Source of the DNA: Nephromyces sp. MM_2019
Taxonomy: Eukaryota; Apicomplexa; Aconoidasida; Nephromycida
NCBI GenBank assembly: GCA_015657535.1
Contig: JADHZB010001227.1
Location: 1-64,000, forward strand
Reading direction: 5' to 3'
DNA length: 64,000 nucleotides
The position numbers and the translations under genes are program-made. Below, in pieces: positions 18,990 to 58,977 of the stretch; within the stretch, counting starts at the first letter, position 1; every line of letters begins with the position of its first letter. Below the pieces are notes generated by a model. The model was not told where the DNA came from, searched no databases, and saw only the letters and a list, made by a program, of their open reading frames with translations.

Positions 18990-20477
18990 AATCACTCCAT
19001 AATAATTCTGAATCTTATCACATAGGTAGCTATGATTTATGAGATCTTTTAAGAAATGTAAAAGATCAAAGAGATTTACTTGGTGGAGATTCTACTTTAT
19101 GAGATCAAATTGGTACTTCAAGATTCGAAAGTTTTAAATTGAAGAAATTTCCAAGCTCCCTTGAACTGCAGTTATCAAAACATGGTTTAGTAGAATAGAG
19201 AATATATGAGTTTGTATGTGAGTTTAACTTGTTTCAATCTTAAAAGGATTTATACTTCAAGGAGTTTGATTTTCTTGGTTTTTCGAGTTAAGTTGACCTA
19301 ATACTAGCTATAAAAGAAGATGTTTAGAGTTTTTAAGAATCTTTTTAGAATGGGTAAGTAATATCGTAATACAGGGTTCCTCCGTCGTTATTAGAGTATT
19401 TCCTTTATCTTAGATCGATCGATCTTTATGTACTTTGTTTTGATACCCACGCTTTTTCTGGTACCGATTTTAGCATATTTTTAGATACTTGGATTCGATA
19501 ATTATTTGGGCATCTTATCTGAACTAAAACAAAATTTCTTTATAACAGTTGTGCTAGGCGCATGAGGACTATACATGACATTGATAATAGCATTAATGAA
19601 ATTATTACTATCTTAATCACTGATAATGAATTGTAAAATACAAAATAACAACAACAGCCATTAGCACTGATAACAATACTAACAAAACTAGCAAGATACA
19701 ACTACTAGAAACGAGGCCAAAGCAATAAAGATAACAGCAATGATAACAAAAATGGCAATGGCAGATACCACAGATTAGATGAACCATGCTATGCATTTAC
19801 AATTGAGCTTAAAATTACCATGTAGCTTGTGAATTAGCATATAAAGTAGCTACATGGCGCTCACACACAACGAGTATGCAAATTGATAATATATATATGT
19901 TCTCTTTTTTTTCCTAATTATGTGAAATCCTACTTCCAGCCTAAAATTTATAAATTGCCAATATAAATCTGGAGAGGTATAAATCATAGCTTCAAATGAA
20001 CTATCACAAGTTGTTTTTCAAAATCTCGTACATAAACATAGAGAAATAGCAGACTATGTTTCAAATCTTGGATCCACTTGTTGATCGTAGATTCAAATCA
20101 CCTAAGTAAACACCAATAGCCTTTGAAAGATTTATTTTGCAAAGCAATAAGTGATAAATCATCATTATAATCATCAAGACAGAAACTTGATTATCTTAAA
20201 TAATTTATTAATTTCCCTTAATCTTTTTCTTTTGAGCTTGTTGATAAATATTACGGATTAGTCAAAACTTGGAAAATAAATCTACCCCCAATGCTCCAAG
20301 ACATCAAAATATTTAATTTTTGTCACTATTTTAGATTGAATACTTGTAAATATATACCCTAGATCGAGATGTAAAACTAGTGGTAAGTGAAATAAGGACT
20401 ATTAGATATCACCAACAGGAATAATCTTTTTTCTGGATATTCCACCTCCCAGCAAGACGGCACAAGCAACTTCTACT
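18990..20477. other. Divergent intergenic region
   Basis: About 1.5 kb between CEP44 (-) and APC2 (+). A purine/AAC-rich simple stretch lies near 19.62-19.78 kb. No gene seen. Confidence 0.5.
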
Positions 20478-23400
20478 ATGCAGGATCAGATTGACTCTTT
20501 GTTTGGAACACTGAAACGTGTTGCAGACTCTTACGAGTCTGCTCTGATGAGCTCTGGACCTACAGGAATTGAATCTAATTATAAGCCCCAAATAGTCTCT
20601 CCACCAATTCCGCAACTTAGCCCACGTTTAAGCGGAGCAAAGCGAAACCAAGGACTAAATAGCTCTGAGCACATCACACTCACTAATAAGCCTTACAACC
20701 TCAGAAACCACAGCCCTGCGAAATACCCTGATAGATCTCAAAATAGGACATATCAAGACAAGTTAAAAGTCTTACCCTTAGCATTAGAATCATGGCTAAA
20801 AACAAATCTACAGACTCTTGAACACTTTTCAGTTATTGAACACCTTCGATTTATAGAAAATATAATAGAGTTATCTAGGTCCTACTTGTATAAAATAGAA
20901 ATCCCATTATTTTGGAGGCCATTTCTTGAGCATAAACGATACACGGCCTATCATATGATGGATTTCAAAACAATGTCCAACTTTTCATCACTTTTTTTGA
21001 TTTCTATAAGCCGATTTTACCTTATTTTTACATACATTATCGAGATTATTATGCAACTATTTTCTTTGGACGATTTTTGCATCAACAAATCCTATAACAA
21101 TGATAACAGAGATGACTTTTTGAATTTTTGGAACAGTTTAATGATATCTAAGGTAAAGGACCTTTTTCAGGATGTTGTTCTTAGACTTGAACATCAGAGG
21201 CCATCTGAGAATGATTCTTTTTATCAAGACTATTTCAAATTCTATTTCACATGCTATTTAGAAACATTTAAGCCATTATTAATTAATTCTTCAATGGAAT
21301 ATAATGGAAATGGTATTAATAATCCATATGGGCCGAGCTCCAACATTCTTTTTTCGTTTGGAATTAATGAATACTTTTCAAAATACATGGTTAGTTCTTG
21401 GATACAACTTATAACTCATAGAACCAATTTAAAGAGGAATCTAAATGCTAAGAACATTTTCCGGGAACAAAACTTAACTACAAGCAGTGAAAACCAAAAT
21501 AGTGTCACCTATCCTTCACTCCTCAATTACAAAATGGCAAACGATTCCGTCAACTACCCGCATTATCCTTCCTTCGATCCAAGGCAAGCTTGTTTTGATC
21601 CTCTACCTAATGGTCACAGACACTCAGATCAATCTGGTTTGGATCCTGAAACTTTAGATATTTTTTCCTCTTTACTTAACGATGAGGGAGCTATTATTTT
21701 TCATGATGGTTCAGGAAAGGAAAACTTGGGAGACAACCCGGACATTAACTCTTTATACTCAAAAGGATGCTACAGTACTAAATCTGAATTTTCACCTTCT
21801 ACCAAGTTTGGAGCAAATCCTAAAGAACATAAAGGAGTTTTATCACATTCCAAAGACAATGATAACTTTTTTAGAAAATCAAAAAACACAAATTCTAGCC
21901 TAGATCCAATAAACTCTACGATTTTCTCCTACCCTCAAAAAATTGACATTCTCAGGCTGGATCCTCTCTTATCAATGCTATATGATATAACTTACTCAAA
22001 AAGTGCAATAATGGAAGAGTCTGTAAATGTACCTGTTGATTTTCAGCATCTACCTTTAATCGCAGATATTTTAAGCATTTTTGGCCAACAAACAATATGG
22101 AAAGAAAATCTTGAACTTTATTTCCAGCAAAAATTAAGCACAGTCCTGAAGGGTTTAAATTCCATGCACTTTTCAAAACAACAGGTTCTCCCTCTATTTA
22201 ACAATATTTCACTTTTTGTGATACCTTTTATGAGAATGTGCTGGGGCTTGGGGAAGTTATTTTATCTACACAACTGTAACATATCCAGCCAACTACCTAA
22301 TTGTCTATATGCAAATAGTCCATCAATCCACAAACCTAGATGTTATGGCATCCTCAAATTTTGCAATTATTTTGGTCTTTTAAATGAATCAGTTTTAGAT
22401 GGAGAATTTGACATAATGATTGGTTCATTGACTTGTTCCACTCTTAAGAGTTTTGTGTCATTAAGACTTAAACAAATGAACCAAGTGTTATATAGTTATC
22501 CCAAATCTATCCCTGCTATCAGAGATTTATTATTTTGTGAGCATATCATTCGAATAAGTGAACAAAATGGAATTGTGACATACTATGACAATTCCGGTAG
22601 CCTTGACCTTTCTGTGTATCTACAACCCTATGAATATTTGTTCAGGGAAGACATGGAGCTGGATAATGACACGGCTATTCACTTATCTCTTAACATCCTA
22701 CAATTTTTTTCGAGCTTCGGTGGAGACGTTATAGTAATAGACAAGCTTCTGGAGCCTTTTAAAAAGCTAGTTTCTAAGCGTAATGACTTTGAAATCACTC
22801 TTTTTGAAAATTTTGAAAATTTAAGATTAGTAGAAAAATCTCTGATAAACAAGGAGGTAATGATACAATATCTGGAACCAAATCAACAGCAAGCTTCCAA
22901 AACTTATCACGAAATACTTGAAGAAGATGATTTCATGCAACCATTACTTCATGAAACCTCCAAAGAGTTCAGGAAAGGATCGAAAATTGAACCTGGATCA
23001 TTGTTAAACTATTATTCAAGTATCATTGGTGATACACAGAAATTTTCAAGCTCTTATGAAGCTTACCTAGCGAAGAAATATCTCAACTTTCGATGGTCTA
23101 ATAACTCAATTCTTTACAAGCTATACAGCTACTCTAATCCGGCATATCTAAAGTCTATATCTAATATTTTAAAAAGCCTAGATAAAGATAAAAAGCACAT
23201 AAAATATATTCATAAATTATTGAACCAAGAGTCAATACAACGCCTCCTTATTATGATAGATGACATTGAGAAAAGTATATCAATCAAATTTTCACCAAAA
23301 ATCACTAATTTAGAAAACGAAACCCTTTCATGCTCTACATTATGTATTTGTAGTAGTGGCTATTGGCCTGAAGAGCTGATACCTTTAGAATACAACATTG

Positions 23401-24386
23401 AAAAAACAAGTGAAATGCTACCACAGGCCGAAATATCTTGCATTTTAAAAGATATGCAAACCATGTACAATAACCAAGAAGTTGATAGAACCATTGAATT
23501 TCGATATGAATTAAGCTTTGTTGACCTTGAAATTGATCATGTTGTATTTTCTTTACCATTTTCGGAGGCAATGGTACTGATAGAAATTAATAATCGAGGT
23601 TCTATAAGGTTGGAATTGCTTAAGAGTTCCCTAAAACTTTTAGACTTAACCTTAAACACTTCTTTACAATCATTGATAGATAAAGGACTTGTTATAGAAT
23701 CTGACTTTGGCTTTTGCATTTCCAAAAACTTTAAAAACTCAAAATTTCTACATTCATGCCCTGAAACAAACCATAGTGAAAAAAGGTTCTCAAATTCCAA
23801 TGTTGAAAAACAGGAGTTTTACGATTGCAAAGACCCTGAATTCTTTTCTAACAACATCGACACTCTAAACTTGAACCCTAGCACTGAAAATTTGAAGGCA
23901 CACCTTGAGTATAATTCTAGTGAACTTATCAAATATGAAGATTCTGGTAACGAAGAAGACACCCAAGAATTTCATGACAAATTGAGTGCCATGGTTTTTG
24001 GAAATGATTGTTGGGATAATACAGCCGATGAGCTTGAATCTGTGAACTTATCTCTTATAGATTCTTCGGACATAGGATCAGTCTCAGATGATCTTAACAT
24101 ATCTAATCAATTTGATGCTAACATTGGACTTTCTGAAAACCTTTATACATATAAAAATATTGTTTTAGAGATTATTAAGGATCGTGAGAAAAGCATGTCA
24201 AGTGATTCAACAAAAACTCAACTGAAATCAACCCCAACGGCATTGATTCTGAAAATTATAAACACAAATTATGGGAACCATAGAGAAGAAACCTTAAAAC
24301 ATGAAGAACTATGGAAGATTCTATGCTGGATGGAATCGAAATCTCTTATTAAAAGAAGATGTGGAAATTGGGAAATTGTTATTTAA
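20478..24386 (+). CDS. APC2: Anaphase-promoting complex subunit 2 (cullin-like), single exon
   Basis: One uninterrupted frame of 1302 codons from ATG. The C-terminal part identifies it: ELSFVDLEIDHVVFSLPFSEAMVL (about residues 1010-1035), followed by a winged-helix-like segment (LELLKSSLKLLDLTLNTSL, IDKGLVIESDFGF), matches the cullin/APC2 region. The last 60 residues (ALILKIINTNYG, LWKILCWMESKSLIKRRCGNWEIV) match the APC2 C-terminal winged helix. APC2 is the cullin scaffold that holds the RING subunit APC11 in the APC/C ubiquitin ligase. The protein is much longer than animal APC2 (about 820 aa), with Asn/Ser-rich low-complexity insertions around residues 290-480 and 1090-1210. It has no introns, although its neighbours are finely split. 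Confidence 0.85.
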   Translation: MQDQIDSLFGTLKRVADSYESALMSSGPTGIESNYKPQIVSPPIPQLSPRLSGAKRNQGLNSSEHITLTNKPYNLRNHSPAKYPDRSQNRTYQDKLKVLPLALESWLKTNLQTLEHFSVIEHLRFIENIIELSRSYLYKIEIPLFWRPFLEHKRYTAYHMMDFKTMSNFSSLFLISISRFYLIFTYIIEIIMQLFSLDDFCINKSYNNDNRDDFLNFWNSLMISKVKDLFQDVVLRLEHQRPSENDSFYQDYFKFYFTCYLETFKPLLINSSMEYNGNGINNPYGPSSNILFSFGINEYFSKYMVSSWIQLITHRTNLKRNLNAKNIFREQNLTTSSENQNSVTYPSLLNYKMANDSVNYPHYPSFDPRQACFDPLPNGHRHSDQSGLDPETLDIFSSLLNDEGAIIFHDGSGKENLGDNPDINSLYSKGCYSTKSEFSPSTKFGANPKEHKGVLSHSKDNDNFFRKSKNTNSSLDPINSTIFSYPQKIDILRLDPLLSMLYDITYSKSAIMEESVNVPVDFQHLPLIADILSIFGQQTIWKENLELYFQQKLSTVLKGLNSMHFSKQQVLPLFNNISLFVIPFMRMCWGLGKLFYLHNCNISSQLPNCLYANSPSIHKPRCYGILKFCNYFGLLNESVLDGEFDIMIGSLTCSTLKSFVSLRLKQMNQVLYSYPKSIPAIRDLLFCEHIIRISEQNGIVTYYDNSGSLDLSVYLQPYEYLFREDMELDNDTAIHLSLNILQFFSSFGGDVIVIDKLLEPFKKLVSKRNDFEITLFENFENLRLVEKSLINKEVMIQYLEPNQQQASKTYHEILEEDDFMQPLLHETSKEFRKGSKIEPGSLLNYYSSIIGDTQKFSSSYEAYLAKKYLNFRWSNNSILYKLYSYSNPAYLKSISNILKSLDKDKKHIKYIHKLLNQESIQRLLIMIDDIEKSISIKFSPKITNLENETLSCSTLCICSSGYWPEELIPLEYNIEKTSEMLPQAEISCILKDMQTMYNNQEVDRTIEFRYELSFVDLEIDHVVFSLPFSEAMVLIEINNRGSIRLELLKSSLKLLDLTLNTSLQSLIDKGLVIESDFGFCISKNFKNSKFLHSCPETNHSEKRFSNSNVEKQEFYDCKDPEFFSNNIDTLNLNPSTENLKAHLEYNSSELIKYEDSGNEEDTQEFHDKLSAMVFGNDCWDNTADELESVNLSLIDSSDIGSVSDDLNISNQFDANIGLSENLYTYKNIVLEIIKDREKSMSSDSTKTQLKSTPTALILKIINTNYGNHREETLKHEELWKILCWMESKSLIKRRCGNWEIVI

Positions 24387-26534
24387 ATAGGTTACTTAAT
24401 CGATAATTTCCTTCTTATTGTGCCATCTTATAACAGCTATAAAATAATTAGACTTTAACTCCGCTTTTAAATAGTAATGAGCTCCCGAATTATGAGGTCT
24501 TAAACCCAAAACAAGTCACAGAGCAGAAAGACAATTTTGAATAGATTAAAATTAGACTGTCCTATACATTTTTATGCTGATGAAAAGATAATTTCGGGAA
24601 TATGATTTTTTTTTACTTCAAAATACAATTTTTGTTGATATAAAGCCCAAAATATATATTATAAAATCTATCCCAAAGATAATGACCTAAGTAATCCCAT
24701 TTATAACTCCTAGGTTATACTCCAGATAGTTTATAGTGCTTAGGTGTGAATTTTAAACTTGTTTAGCTACAAAAATTTATGCTACCTACAACACCCCGAG
24801 CTAACGTAACTAAAAATTTTTGGTCCAAATTGCTTTATCTACTATAAATTTCATTCTAAAGTAATTATTTAGGCTTGGAAAATTGAAACTTTGACAGAAC
24901 AATTTTATTTGATGAAGATCCTAAATTCTGTTAATGGTAAGCATCTTGTTAGTTTTCTGAAAAATTTTGATACTAAAAAGGAGATGTTATATGTCCTATG
25001 AACACTAAGGACTCTCACACACTTTTCCAAATGTCAATATGACTAAGCACGTACTCAGACCAATATCTTCTAAAATATAAATCATAGGAAATTCTTAAAA
25101 GATTACAAATAGTATCTAGATAGCCATATACACTAAAATCTAAAGAGATAAAAAGTTTTAACTAATTAAGAATTTGTGGAATTAGCAAGGTACCTATGCA
25201 TAATTTATTACACTAGTGTTAAAGATATTTAGTATAAGTAATCTATTTTACACCTGAGATTGATTAGATTAAGAAAGATGTTTACCAAATTATTGACTTC
25301 TTTATTTTATTATGAACCACTAGCTAGCTACAGATATATTTTATTAATAAGCTTTATGAACTTACTCATTTTTCATCAATAGTCATTACTTATTAAATTT
25401 TAACTAAACATTTTTAATTTCAGTTTTGTTTTATAGAATTTTTATGAAATTAAAGATTGTATTAACAGGGCCAAATTTGTATTTTTATCAAACTTGGATA
25501 AAAAATTCATCAAATTAATAAAATAAGTGTAGCATTAAGAAAATGAAAATATACTTTGCTAAAAAAATTCAAATTCCAAAAAGAAATGAAACAAGATAAT
25601 ATTCCAATATAATTTAACGCTTTCAAATTCTAGACGAACAAAGTGTTATGCAATCCTATACTAAACAGAGTGAAGATACGAGAATATTCTATAGATAGAA
25701 TTCTAAAAGATCTTTGCCCTTTTTGATGTGTGTGTGTGTGTCTTTGTTGAGATACTCCTTGGGTTTTCTATATAGCGGTGAATTTATAATCCAAACGTCA
25801 ATATGTAGTTAATGCACACAGCTTATTACTATCCAATTTTCTAGATATGTTTTTAATTTCATTGGAAATGCAAGTGGCCTAACTTATAATTAAACTTTTA
25901 CGCATTTAGCAATAAGCTTATGCACTCCCTTCTATCAAACATTGACCGATTTCATTAGCTTATGATATACTGTTTGGTATATTAAGCTTTTGAACTCCTT
26001 AATTTTTCATTTAGCTCAGTAAATATTTTTGAATCAGGAATATTTTTTTCTTTTAATTAACTATTTATGTATTTATAATTATACCTTCATTCTGTACTAT
26101 TATTAGACAAATAAGTTATTTATTAATTGTATACATAATTATTTCTTACTTTTTCTTGAACACAAAGCACTACTACTTTAAGTTTATCACTTTTGAGTAT
26201 ATTTAATACTCTTGAGAATAGACTTGAGCACCCAAACCAATTTCTTTTAAGTTTTCTGGAAAACTTAGGGAGTTAGCTTGCCAGGTACTTATGAATAAAT
26301 AACACATTAGAAGCTCAATGAGATACAATATAAAAAAGGTAACATTTGCAGACATTAACACTAACAAATCCTCCTAAGGGTGTAACTTGGTGTGACTCAA
26401 TTATATGGGAGCTTTTCTTTATTGCTTGCATTTTTTTAAAGCTAGATTTATAACAGTAAATTTTTTAAATCTCAGGAATATTCAAAAGCCAAGACATGAA
26501 ACACCTACATCTCTCCTGATCTAACTTAGCAAAA
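24387..26534 (+). other. Intergenic spacer
   Basis: About 2.1 kb of very AT-rich DNA between APC2 and the GAF-bZIP gene. It contains a short (TG) run near 25728-25740. No coding exon recognised on either strand. Confidence 0.5.
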
Positions 26535-27882
26535 ATGGAAATAAATAATCAAAGTGCACCCAATCCAGAAGCGTTTTATTCCGCTGCAATGTCCATATTT
26601 AATGCTTGCTTAGAAGATGGCTCTTTCGTTGCATTTGATTGTTGGAGCTGGGATAGTAACACCGGGCACATAAAATATGTCTCTACGTAATCAATCATTT
26701 TATTAATGCTTAAATGTATATTCAATAAAATTAGGCTTTTGTTTTCATAATGACTATATTAAATAAATATATCCTACTTAAAGAGCTTGTAAAAAATTCT
26801 ACCAAAATTTTAATAATAGGTTTCATTATGAATTAGACTCTTCATTATACGTATGGATGCTTGAAAGTGCGGCAAGGTATTTTAAAATCGGAGAAGTAAG
26901 TTACCTAGACATTTTGACATAAAAATAGGGTATAACAATAAAGTTAATATTTATGGAAAAGTTGACTTTAAAATTACGATAAACTCCAATCCATAAATTA
27001 ATACATATATTATCCTAAACTTAAATTACTACTTAGGACCTCCCAGGAAGAGTTTTTCAGAACGGTACATATGAAGAATGTACAGACATATCTGCCCTTG
27101 CACCTGTTAGTAAAAAATAATAGATAGAACCATTTAGTTTCTTTTATACTACGCCTCTACACAATACTTAAAAAATGTTTCAACTTTGATCATTAGGAAA
27201 AAGATGTTTTTAGTCGTAAACAAAAGGCAATTCAGAACAATCTTTGCACCTACCTAGGGGTACCGATTTTTAAAAATATGGGAAATTGTGCTACAGTCAG
27301 TTATGTACTGGCATTTTATGGCAAAGAAAAACCCAAAGACTACTTTGAATGGTCAAACAAGGTAACCAAAGTCCTCGATCGAATGTACTCTAATATTCAC
27401 ATGTGTGAGTGGATGGATTTTAGACTTTGTAAGTCTTCATTTAAATGTTTGAAAAATTGAATCCGCAAAAAATTCTGTAAATTATTAGCCCTTGAACAAG
27501 ATGGTAAAGCCAAAAGGACGAGAAAAAGGCGTCCTCAAATCAAACAAAAGTGTACAAGGAATGATGAAAATTGCCCATGCAGACTATGTATTGTGTAAGC
27601 TGATACTTGAAATTTCGCAGCTATCTAAATTGGAGTGATTTTTATACCTGTTTGCTAAATATTAGAAAACGAAACAATAGAGAGTATGCTCGTCGATCTC
27701 AGCGTCGTCGGGCTCAAGCTGTGGCTGAACTTCCTGTTCTACATGAAAAGATCCAGAAACAAAACCAAGAAATAAGAGAACTTAGTAGAAACAATGAGGA
27801 ACTTAGAAAAATGCTAATGCAAGCAGTTCAAACAATTAGGAATCTCAATTCGAGAGATTGTGAAATCTTTCCTAGTTGCTGA
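26535..27882 (+). CDS. GAF-like domain plus bZIP protein, putative transcription factor
   Basis: Six exons: 26535-26686, 26820-26895, 27037-27105, 27197-27428, 27489-27594 and 27666-27882 (or from 27621), about 283 aa. Exons 1-4 resemble a GAF domain: AMSIFNACLEDG, WMLESAARYFKIGEDLPGRV, FQNGTYEECTDISALAP, YLGVPIFKNMGNCATVSYVL and AFYGKE, in the order typical of GAF (LPGRV turn, then the xLGVPI strand). Exon 5 is basic and Cys-rich (KRTRKRRPQ, CTRNDENCPCRLC). Exon 6 carries the bZIP: NREYARRSQRRR, then heptad positions L, I, I, N, L (ELP, EKI, QEI, NNE, KML). The spacing basic motif-x9-L is canonical, but the normally invariant Arg eight residues after the Asn is Gln. The acceptor of the last intron is ambiguous; both choices stay in frame. 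Likely nuclear and DNA binding, perhaps controlled by a ligand of the GAF fold; that is inference. Confidence 0.7.
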
Positions 27883-50101: not shown

Positions 50102-53100
50102 ATGGCAGCGGAAACAAAGCTTCAGATGAAATTTAATAGCGAACTACCTACAATCTTAGATACAAAGTTCCAGATTCAGCCAATGAAATATTCAACAAAT
50201 GGTGTTGAAGCAAATTATATGTTGAACGGTAAGCTTTGTGAACATGAAGCCATCGAGGATTTCAAATCAACTAAAGATGCTGAAAAATTAGGTAGTGAGA
50301 ATTTTAAGTTTCCCCAATGCCATGAATCTAAGCCTTTTGAGTATATAAAAAGTAATAAAAATACATTCGAATCAAATCCTGATGACCAGTAAGTAAAGCT
50401 CGGGAAATACATAGCTAAGCTTTGAAGTTAATTTGTTATATTTTGCAATCTTTTAGTAGCCGAATTGGAGAGCTTTCAAACACAAAAGATTGCGCTAAGT
50501 TTGAAGACTCAGGAGATTATGAAGGCTGCAAGATCAATGAAGAAATCGATTGCTATACCTGTGAAGACAAAAGTGGCCCATATGATTCTAATAGGTTTTC
50601 AAAACGAGAAATTCAGTAAGTTCAGTTTCTTAATCCCAAACTGTTGTAAAATTAGCTATTCTGATTCAACTTTATTTAATAGTATTTGATAATATTATGA
50701 AATACAGTTAATCAAATTACCCTCTATAAAAATATTCTAATTTAGACAAGGCAGTAATGATGTAGGGTCAGGGGGCTTTCAAAATTGTGAAACAAAGGTA
50801 ATAATTAGGCATTGATTCCTGGCTATAAATTCAAGGAAAATATTTCAATGCTGAGAATGTTGATAGTTTATTATATAAATATCTATGTAATATAATTTAT
50901 AAAAGAAATGTAAATTCCCAAATAAAATTTTGTTTTGGATATTCAGAATCAGTCATCGACTGACGAGAAGCTAACCGGAAATAATGAGGGATCGAGGAAA
51001 ATTACAAATGAGGCTGAAGAAATATCAGATTTCATACCTAATTTACAGCAGCACTTATATGCTTGGCAGTCGCAAATTAGAAATATACAAGACAAGGAGT
51101 TCGAGTTTGGATATTCTAAAAGATTACAATCATATGAGTTGGAGAAAAGTGTGGAGGTTATGAAAAATCTTAGAAGTCTTGTAAGGGATCTTAAAGATTC
51201 ACAAAAAGTGATATTATACATCCAACAAAACATAATTGAAACCCAAAATCAATTTAAAAAAATGTTGAATGGAAACCAAATAAACATACAAAGTGGGATT
51301 TTTGAGAATCCTATGTTAGATGAACATAGTCCGAAATTTTCACCATATATAGTTCAAAATAATACTAGTAACCATTATTCAAGTCATATAGATATAGCTG
51401 ATCTTATAAATGCTTTAAGTCCTAAGAATACAGCTGTTAAGCCACCAAGTCAAGAGATTTCAATTAAAACTCCTTCAGTAATATTCCCTGACCCTTTGAC
51501 ACAAGGCACAACGACTAGGGGGAAAAGATACAATGTTAAAGTTGAGGAAAATAATGAGTATAAAAACAATTCATTTAGTGATAAAAAAAGATCAAGAGGT
51601 GGGAAACCAGCCGTGAGAGATGAAACTCCAATTCCAGGTGTCAGATATGCTAAGGATCGCAACTCATGGGTAGCATTCTGGTGTGAAGGTGGTAGGCAAA
51701 ACTATAAATCATTTAGCAACAAGAAGTTCGGTCACGAAAAGGCAAAGCAATTGGCAATTCGTGCTCGAATTGCATTCGAGCAGAATCATTTGGAAGAACA
51801 AGCTAATAATGTGCCTTCTCAAGATTATGATTATAGTGAACCAATGCTAAATGAAGGCTTTGATCATGATCCAAATTTTATGGAGCCAAATGGAGAGGAT
51901 TTAGGTAGGTGCGATGGCTCTAAGAATATCAATCGTGGACAGTTCAATGGTATTCGCTGTAACCTTGCAAATACACCGAGAAATGAGCTTCAGCAGCTAG
52001 CAGGATCGCTAGAAAATCCTAAAGGGGTGTGCTATGCTCCTAGTAATAATACCTGGATGGCTTATGGGGGAAATAGTTCAGGTATGAGGATGTGTAAGTC
52101 ATTTCCAGTTCATAAATATGGATTTTTCAAGGCTAGGGAGCAGGCCATATTAGCTTTAGGGGGAAATCTTAAACATGATGCTCAGCAATTCAAAGGAAAG
52201 GAGGAAATTTTAGAGAATCTTTACATCCGTATGCAAATGTACGATTGCCCCATAGACATGCCAATGATTAATTCTGAAAGAATCAAAAACATCATAGAAT
52301 CATATAATGTAAAAAACCCTGAATATGCAACATTGTTAGTTAGCTCAGATGCTATGGAAAAAGATGTCAATAGTTTTAATGCGGATGTGGTTTGTGAAGG
52401 TAGTAACAATGTTCCACTTATGTATGGGATAGACTCCAAAAACTCAAGAAATTTGGTCACAGATGTAAGTACACAAGGTATATCAGTAAATACAGATATA
52501 AATCCAGATAAGAGTGTAAATGGGGTGCTCCTAAACTCGAATAAGACTTCACAAGAAAAACTTAATCAAAGTAATGAGCATGTTAAAGGTGTGAATTTCA
52601 ATCGTCAATGCAATACATGGGCAGCTATATGGTATGTAAATGGAGTTCAGCAGGTAAAGTACTTCTCAGTAAAGCAATATGGCTATGATGAAGCTAAGCG
52701 TTTAGCAGTTGAACATCGAAAGAAAATTGATGCTCATAGATTAAAAACTTCAAAGGATAAAGGGAGTAGTCGAATCAGGTGTGGTTTCCGAGATAAATCT
52801 AGTAGTGTTACTTCTAATCATTCAATGGTGAGACGTCAAAGGAGTTCCCAAATAAATCATATAAACGAATCTATGCAGGATGGCTCAATTTCTAGTTTAC
52901 ATGAAATCACAGCTGCGATAACAAATTGCTTAGGGACACAAAATATAGAAGCTCCACAGGTCGATGTGGAAAGTACAATAACCAGCAGTCCAAATTTTGT
53001 AAATGGAACTCCTAGTTCTCAATCTTATGACCCGTTAAATAATAATTCTGAAATTACAAAAAAGTTTAGAAATTATAATTACACGGATGAATCATATAAT

Positions 53101-53178
53101 AAGGATTTAGCTCATAGAGAGGCTAATATTTCAGAGCAGGAGTTAAGTGTTGATGGTAACCAGGAGGTGGGAGTATAG
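50102..53178 (+). CDS. ApiAP2-type transcription factor with three AP2 domains
   Basis: Exons 50102-50388, 50457-50615, 50746-50797 and 50947-53178 join in phases 2, 2 and 0 for 909 aa. Three AP2-like domains of about 50-55 residues are visible. The first begins near residue 397 (GVRYAKDRNSWVAFWCEGG, then KSFSNKKFGHEKAKQLAI). The second begins near 526 (GVCYAPSNNTWMAYGG, then KSFPVHKYGFFKAREQAI). The third begins near 714 (GVNFNRQCNTWAAIWYVNG, then KYFSVKQYGYDEAKRLAV). Each keeps the strand pattern G-V-x-Y/F ... W-x-A ... K-x-F-x-V/N-x-K-x-G ... A and the helix after it. A leucine/lysine-rich coiled-coil-like segment precedes them (about 215-265). ApiAP2 proteins are the main sequence-specific regulators of apicomplexans. 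The N- and C-terminal parts are low-complexity Asn/Ser/Glu. Domain 2 is the most divergent (GGNSSGMRM between strands). Confidence 0.9.
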
Positions 53179-56130: not shown

Positions 56131-58392
56131 CTTAGTGAATTTTTCTGTCTATTTTTTACAAAACCTTTCTACAAAAATTGTATAAATTACGGGTATATAT
56201 GTAACCATAAGAAGTGTCTAATTTAAACAAGTTAACAATTGTATATATTTAATTACGCATCATAGGATTGTCCAATAGGGATAAGTTCACAATTATTTGT
56301 GTTTATATATACATCTCAATCTCTATTTCTTATTTTGAGTATGTAAAATTAAATGAAGGGGATATTGCTTATATTAAATTTTTTATAGTTGTAGGGTATG
56401 TATGTATGTATATGTGGGTAGAATTATATAGTTGGGGCTAAAATACACAAATGGGTGCAAAAATGCAAAAATGGTTTTTTTTTGTTTGGGGAGTGTATAT
56501 GTAAATATATATTTATATGTGTGTGTGTAATGAAAGTGGAAAAAATGATTATATTGAAAGTATATAAAAAGAGTTTCAGTCATTTAACGCTTTTATTATA
56601 AATTTTAAGCATTTTATGGAAACTCGTGCTAAAAAAAAAGAAAGATAGTTTTCTATTTAAACTCTAGCGCTCATTTAATCATTATTTGTTGTTTGTGTGA
56701 AGTCTTTGTTTCATACTATTTGTAAGTTTTATGTGTGTTAACTTGGTGTTTGCTTGGTCTTGATGTGTGTGTTAGTTTAATATGTGTATTATTTTATGTA
56801 CACATAAGCTTGATATGTGCACTACAAACATCCTTGTACAAGTTTGATGAGTGGGAAAAATTTTGAGTGTGTGATATTGGTGTGTGGGAAAAATTTGCAT
56901 GTGCATGTGCGTGACAGTGACATATATGGGCAGTTGGTTTTTGCGATGTAGATTTGTGCTGGGTTTAAAAAATTGATATTTACCCAAATTGGATCTTTTC
57001 GGGGGGTTTACATGTAATTTATATATACCTTGATGTGTGGAAAGAAATATAAAATCTTTTTAAATTTATTTTGTGTGCTTTTTTTTAAACTTAAAGTGTA
57101 TATTTTAATTACAATTTTAATTTTTAGCCTGAGAATAAATGTTTGAGTAAATTTTTCATCACATGTTTTGTATATAATGAGAAATAATAAGGTATGTTTT
57201 GTGAGTATATGTGGTTTTTAATGCAGAAAACAAATATTAGGCACTCAATGATTTCTGTGGTGTTTGTGTTCAACATCAGTTTGCTTAATTGCCTTGTTAA
57301 ATAAATTTTGCACATATAACGTGCTGAATTTAAACTATACAATTCAAGTAAACAATTTTTTCAAACATTTTTTAGTGTTTGTTATATAATTAAATGTGAG
57401 AATCAGTTTGGTTTTTTTGTTGTATAAACTTCAGAGATAATTTCGATTTTTAAACATTGATATTTGTTTTATAAGTTTTAATTCATTAATGACATAATCT
57501 GAGTTTTAGCTATTTTACAACTATTTAGGATTGAATCATCCAAATACACAGTTTTGATTTAAGCAGTATGCTTCAAGACGATATAATATGAAAAGTCAAT
57601 TTGCTAAGCACACAGAAGTGAATGTTTATGAGTTAGAATAGCTCTTTTAAACAAAATTTTAAAGACTAAACCAGTTTTAATTATTCAATTATGCACAAGG
57701 GAAATGTATACTAGGAAGTTGTATGTCATATATATAATTACATATAATATGAAATGTTAATGGAAGCATTGAGAGTAGCCTGGTGTATTCATAGTAATTA
57801 ATAAGTGGAATTTGTTATACGCTTTAACAAAATTGAATGTTTCCTATATACCCTTGCTTCCATAAGCAAGATTTATATGTAATGTGTTGGATCTAAATAT
57901 TAATCAATCAATCATACTCATAGATGACTGACTCTATTTTGTACATAACTTTTAACATTTATGTTTATGCTTTACTTAGCCTTGCATGTTTTCTACAGTA
58001 GTGATGCAGTAGCATAAGCACATTTTTACAGAACCTAAATATGTAAAGATATTTATATAAGCCAAACACATACATTAATGTATGTAATTAACAATCTTGA
58101 CTTAACCCACACGCACTAACATATGTATCCACTCATTCACTTGTCCACAAATGAGCATATACAAGTACACAGAGATGCGCAAACGCGCTTACAAAGTACA
58201 AAAACATAAACCAGCACGCACACCCTCACGCACATACCCACACACAAGGTACTACTGGCACATGCTTTCACATCTTTAGTCGCATCTCTACACGCTCCTG
58301 CATCATCCCTTAACCAATCTTACTAGACTAACACACATGCACAAACAGAGTGAGCAATACAAACGCAAGCATATTCACAAAAACACACACAC

Positions 58393-58456
<64 letters not shown>

Positions 58457-58518
58457 NNNNNNNNNNNNNNNNNNNNNNNNNNNNNNNNNNNNNNNNNNNN
58501 NNNNNNAAACACACACAC

Positions 58519-58582
<64 letters not shown>

Positions 58583-58977
58583 CACACACTAACACACAGA
58601 GTTACACACACACACACAGAGCCACACACACACACAGAGCCACACACACACACATATACACACGCACAAATAAATATATACAACAGCCACACGCACATAT
58701 ACACAGCATCGACTCACATTATTCATGTATACTTAAATAATCACATAATTACATAGCACACCCCCCCTCCCTCCTCCCCAAACTCAGATGTACCCAAAAT
58801 GACATAATTTTGAGCCATTACAACTAATCTTCTTTCAAATTAAATTATTTATAAATTTGGTCATCTTCCTCTCCCTCTCCCTCATCTTCATTTTATTAAT
58901 ATTTTTCTCCATTTCTTACCTAATTTGTTTTTTCTTAATTACCTCATATTTTGTTTTCTTGATATATTTTCTTCAAA
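56131..58977. other. Long divergent intergenic region with strong base skew
   Basis: About 2.8 kb between the aldo/keto reductase (-) and eL29 (+). From about 56.38 to 57.3 kb the plus strand is G/T-rich. From about 58.05 to 58.80 kb it is A/C-rich. Read along the coding strand of the adjacent gene, both halves are therefore A/C-rich. No exon recognised: open frames over the CA tract are only repeats. Confidence 0.6.
58383..58580. repeat. (CA)n microsatellite interrupted by a 50-N gap
   Basis: Near-perfect CA repeats run from about 58383 to 58456 and from about 58510 to 58580, with 50 N between (58457-58506). Both sides contain the same AAACACACACACAACACACA edge. The gap is an assembly placeholder, and the true repeat length is unknown. 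Imperfect CACA-rich sequence with GAGCCACACA units continues to about 58660. Confidence 0.95.

Follow-up and report, generated by a model that had tools for sequence, protein, structure and literature searches.

What kind of protein is encoded at positions 26535-27882 (+) of the window, that is, of the whole 64,000-nucleotide stretch of DNA analysed here, where an earlier note had read a GAF-like sensor domain linked to a bZIP? We put at roughly 0.6 the probability that this gene would encode a DNA-binding regulator that is nuclear and dimeric and is under the control of its GAF domain. The predicted protein has 283 aa and results from six exons spliced in phase (849 coding bases plus the stop codon), and it contains, in this order, a GAF domain, a basic Cys-rich linker, and a basic region with coil-like heptads. 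The features are as follows.

26535..26686, + strand: exon 1, covering residues 1-50 and a part of 51, with the start codon ATG at 26535; supplies the N-terminal portion of the GAF domain
26820..26895, + strand: exon 2, up to residue 76; the match to the GAF profile starts at residue 58
27037..27105, + strand: exon 3, residues 77-99; carries the segment LPGRV, conserved in the GAF domain
27197..27428, + strand: exon 4, residues 100-176; supplies the C-terminal portion of the GAF domain
27489..27594, + strand: exon 5, up to residue 211; KRTRKRR basic stretch and Cys cluster
27666..27882, + strand: exon 6, with the basic region and the zipper-like coil; stop codon at 27880-27882
26550..27403, + strand: GAF domain, residues 6-168, spread over exons 1-4, located by profile and BLASTP
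27667..27726, + strand: basic region, residues 213-232 (KRNNREYARRSQRRRAQAVA), with Asn216, and with Gln224 where Arg/Lys is usual
27730..27840, + strand: zipper-like coil, residues 234-270, with heptad positions L234, I241, I248, N255, L262 and I269, and with Pro235

All five introns (133, 141, 91, 60 and 71 bases) have GT..AG boundaries, with acceptors ending in TTAG (four) or ATAG (one), and in-frame read-through leads to a stop in every one of them. When codon log-odds were derived from ten long ORFs chosen from the window, the frame of the model was the best of six in five of the six exons, and all 15 forward intron frames scored negative, stops being penalised. In exon 5, however, a rival open frame had the higher codon score (4.9 versus 2.6), and the frame of the model is taken there only because the exon 4 donor and the frame and phases of exon 6 force the choice. 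This second frame might indicate a mis-joined model, in which exons 1-4 would constitute a GAF gene and exon 6 would belong to a separate transcript; but the sites of the introns of 60 and 71 bases are canonical and their phases fit, no Met precedes the basic region in the exon 6 frame (the first being residue 261), and the frame given to exon 6 by splicing is also its best by codons. Because intron sites, phases and the exon 6 codon frame oppose it, we judged such a join of two genes to be very unlikely. Coordinates, phases, GT-AG introns and codon usage agree with the six-exon, 283-aa model at 26535-27882 proposed earlier. An acceptor-like TTAG was seen at 26526-26529, directly 5' of the ATG, and therefore an additional upstream exon or an intron in the 5' UTR is possible.

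By sequence comparison, the N-terminal half is a real GAF domain, with high significance. Pfam yielded no GAF match for the whole protein or for its pieces, including the N-terminal 176 residues. As bait we used a hand-written consensus of a bacterial GAF family, chosen for a likeness noticed by eye, and 167 proteins were returned; a family profile was then built from the 120 that were listed of these 167, with the bait excluded. This profile gave 41.2 bits for the whole spliced protein (E 5e-15, one comparison) and 39.8 bits for residues 1-176, versus maxima of 5.4 and 10.0 bits for the first and second 2000 shuffles of the same residues; the reversed protein scored -0.7 bits. Exons 3 and 4 reached 10.4 and 18.4 bits on their own, each higher than all of 1000 shuffles, and aligned to successive segments of the profile (114-132, then 136-198). 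Among 1245 ORF pieces of the window (at least 25 aa), exon 4 ranked first and exon 3 second, the third piece scoring 5.5 bits. Exons 1 and 2, each alone, showed no match to the bacterial-type profile, and exons 5-6 gave 4.0 bits, a score equalled or exceeded by 8 of 1000 shuffles.

Single relatives gave the same picture. The best of 122 (the 120 listed proteins plus two plant chains) was P0086, a Leptolyngbya protein by its name, which BLASTP aligned to residues 6-168 with E 2e-10 and 27% identity (44 of 164 positions), and in single-query scoring the real domain exceeded all 2000 shuffles for 99 of the 122. An hhalign comparison with the GAF family gave 93% probability over 74 columns. Exon 4, modelled with the relatives as alignment, was predicted to fold as helix-strand-strand-helix (pLDDT 76.9, pTM 0.54), in line with the end of a GAF domain; a Foldseek search of the PDB with this model returned no GAF domain among nine hits, the best with E 4.9. 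The GAF-like domain of the earlier note is thus borne out by profile, BLASTP and the ranking of exons 3 and 4. As for the profile search without a GAF fold that the earlier note had named as evidence against itself, Pfam alone indeed finds none, but the family-specific profile finds one.

The listed relatives, 120 proteins of 135-249 aa, carry the Pfam labels GAF_2 (PF13185), GAF (PF01590) and often bHLH-MYC_N (PF14215). Against solved structures, the family profile matched EGL1/EGL3 best (E 1.1e-9), followed by bacterial GAF domains (E at least 0.004), and the AlphaFold model of one relative, P0028, had a GAF fold (pLDDT 90.4) that matched EGL3, MYC3 and bacterial GAF structures. PF14215 had no Pfam match on the whole protein or its pieces, and a profile made from the two plant chains gave 9.0 bits for the parasite domain, exceeded by one of 2000 shuffles (maximum 10.2). 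Because the family matches both plant and bacterial GAF domains and the plant-chain profile fails, we hold, on these similarities, that the domain is to be placed with the GAF family of bacterial type, which has a likeness to plant MYC_N as well. In a 24-row alignment, the LPGRV segment does not vary between the bacterial-type proteins and the parasite protein, nor do individual R, A, P and W positions, whereas of their WxYGEAW the latter has retained the last W alone. The Pfam labels listed for these stand-alone GAF proteins include no DNA-binding domain, in contrast to the basic region and coil of the parasite protein. Of the 120 listed relatives, 11 come with an organism name, and every one of these names reads as cyanobacterial; this cyanobacterial share is biased because the bait was of that type. 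The GAF domain may perhaps be of plastid derivation.

The same comparisons bear on what the domain may do. The NKFDE motif, the mark of cyclic-nucleotide-binding GAF domains, is absent from the predicted protein, and the nearest solved structures are plant EGL3 and MYC3, many of them in complexes; both points would suit a regulator of the same kind in which the GAF domain docks a protein or dimerises and has no small-molecule ligand, like the plant MYC_N that binds MYB/JAZ. However, the bacterial-type relatives are nearer than the plant chains, and the plant-chain score falls within the range of its shuffles. We regard a ligand-free docking module as a tentative option, and the weight given to it overlaps that of the GAF-steered regulator, since docking is a variant within that reading. 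Taken by itself, the docking of a partner is about as likely as the sensing of a ligand, because many EGL3/MYC3 structures are protein or peptide complexes.

For the C-terminal half, the earlier note had claimed a bZIP, and the evidence is divided. A bZIP basic region follows the rule Asn-x7-Arg/Lys, and the first zipper hydrophobic residue lies 18 residues past the Asn. In the predicted protein, Leu234, the first zipper Leu, lies exactly 18 residues past Asn216, but the residue at +8 is Gln224 and not Arg/Lys, with an Arg at +9 and a Tyr at +3; at the heptad positions of the zipper stand L, I, I, N, L and I, with an irregular Pro235 directly after the first zipper Leu. The Pfam search of the whole 283-aa protein gave no bZIP_1 match. 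With a 64-residue C-terminal piece, bZIP_1 aligned in register over profile positions 11-60 (E 0.0043, 17.6 bits versus a cut-off of 27.6), and its scores across pieces ranged from 15.7 to 17.6 bits, all below that cut-off. The in-register match required the basic region and the coil together; bZIP_1 did not match the zipper by itself or the piece in reverse, and the 25-residue basic part alone had no match in Pfam.

On the same 64-residue piece, Med21 (19.6 bits) and SIKE (18.0 bits) exceeded bZIP_1, with Med9 and Geminin slightly lower, and single-sequence searches of the PDB returned mainly Geminin coils, none significant. These other coiled-coil families, equal to or better than a bZIP_1 that stays below its cut-off, together with the atypical Gln224 and Pro235, may also be explained by a GAF domain followed by a non-bZIP coiled coil, that is, by a dimerising scaffold or signalling protein whose basic stretch would bind RNA, acidic proteins or membranes. 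Yet the in-register match depends on the basic region as well as the coil, and NREYARRSQRRR, which is preceded by the basic linker, resembles basic regions and is the sole motif of its kind in the window (0.05 expected), although this loose motif was defined from the gene's own sequence and about 38 would be expected genome-wide in six frames. A scaffold of this type appears to us rather unlikely, and we consider the C-terminal half to be probably a divergent bZIP. The bZIP of the earlier note is accordingly kept as probable and not as established, with the register and the Leu234 spacing in its favour and the sub-threshold score, Gln224 and Pro235 against it.

Between the two halves, the Cys/basic linker described earlier was found as such: residues 177-212 include 11 Lys/Arg with the KRTRKRR stretch, and four Cys form the cluster C198-x6-C205-x-C207-x2-C210 (27551-27589, exon 5). 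No zinc family in Pfam matched the linker. The linker may act as a nuclear signal and may also provide a site for metal binding or redox chemistry. In the GAF-steered regulator, the coil would form parallel dimers and the basic region would grip DNA as a divergent bZIP does, the basic linker would bring about nuclear import of the protein, and the GAF domain would set activity through the binding of a small molecule or the docking of a partner protein. A change in the GAF domain would then be relayed by the short linker and reach the basic region, altering the geometry of the dimer or the access to the basic region. A more specific proposal is that of a one-component transcription factor gated by a ligand or by redox state, in which a bacterial-type GAF domain, perhaps plastid-derived, would have been captured ahead of a divergent bZIP with a DNA specificity of its own conferred by the Gln, the Cys cluster (C198/C205/C207/C210) would serve as a zinc or redox switch beside the basic region, and a metabolite would directly set transcription; we think this version rather unlikely.

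The protein itself was searched twice against a set of 5.8 billion proteins, the eukaryote share of which is unstated, giving 533 and 13 candidates, none with E of 10 or less. No orthologue was found in this protein set, and no paralogue or second copy in the gene's own genome. Profile searches of the latter (48.3 Mb, 1127 contigs) covered all six frames one exon at a time and have little power where a domain is split. Specifically, PF14215 had no match there or in the control genomes; GAF_2 and bZIP_Maf had none in the own genome, GAF_2 missing even the gene studied here; bZIP_2 gave one weak match at another locus (17.2 bits, below the cut-off); and bZIP_1 returned one other gene, the GAF-bZIP gene not being listed.

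A second bZIP of the own genome was observed at L001 370-1989 (-), with the match at G000:C922:14876-15064. It scored 30.5 bits as a 67-residue piece and 24.4 bits, below the cut-off, as the whole frame, and has an Arg at +8 from the Asn, unlike Gln224 in the gene studied here. About 110 residues further on there is a strong hydrophobic helix, at about residues 278-301, whose best mean hydropathy over 19 residues is 2.38. This bZIP is clearer than that of the studied gene, with what appears to be an ATF6-like, membrane-anchored layout. Two papers (PMC5249076, PMC5583660) state that apicomplexans, or the parasites they examined, lack ATF6.

The earlier note held bZIP factors to be rare or missing in apicomplexans. 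Rarity is consistent with two reports, in which Plasmodium is described as devoid of bHLH or bZIP factors (PMC5249076) and as giving no hits for bHLH/bZIP (PMC2821373), but absence does not hold, given the second bZIP of the own genome and the bZIP-type entries, counted by text search, for Cryptosporidium parvum in a table of PMC3734150. The further claim, that no GAF-bZIP is known in the group, stands to the extent that none was evident in the part of the open-access literature that was surveyed.

Known systems resemble the predicted protein in different respects. In plant EGL3/MYC3 factors, too, a related domain of GAF type precedes a basic helix that dimerises and binds DNA. Their DNA-binding part is a bHLH, and Pfam found no HLH match in the 283-aa protein; the parasite gene would be a separate case of an MYC_N-like GAF domain ahead of such a helix. 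Aureochromes of photosynthetic stramenopiles (PMC12558739, PMC4827209) combine a bZIP and a LOV sensor in one protein. The LOV sensor lies behind the bZIP, whereas here the GAF domain lies in front of the bZIP-like part, and Pfam found no LOV or PAS match in the 283-aa protein. A GAF or GAF-like domain in an apicomplexan is reported for Toxoplasma PDE2 (PMC10865986), but it is attached to a phosphodiesterase and not, as here, to a basic region and coil. The GAF-bZIP candidate also differs from the ApiAP2 factors, the presumed DNA-binding regulators of the same genome, in having no AP2 domain by Pfam. Gene control in apicomplexans has mostly been described in terms of AP2 factors, and a factor with its own sensor domain would link a metabolite or a partner protein directly to a gene.

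In the own genome, AP2 was matched 64 times (44 above the cut-off; three in the AP2 protein of the window itself), alveolin 20 times, and AMA-1 once above the cut-off. Of the 14 control genomes, one gave a match to AP2 and one to alveolin. Such a content suits an apicomplexan or a very close relative. The AMA-1-like ORF is located at L009 1477-2382 (-), G000:C941, and scored 25.7 bits (cut-off 21); downstream of it is an ORF with a Thr/Arg/Ala repeat. In the window itself, a 750-aa open frame with three AP2 domains lies at 50926-53178 (+). Upstream of the gene, a 1326-aa open frame at 20406-24386 (+) had a sub-threshold match to ANAPC2 (20.2 bits, cut-off 27), and a long CA-type simple repeat at 58280-58756 is broken by an N run, probably an assembly gap.
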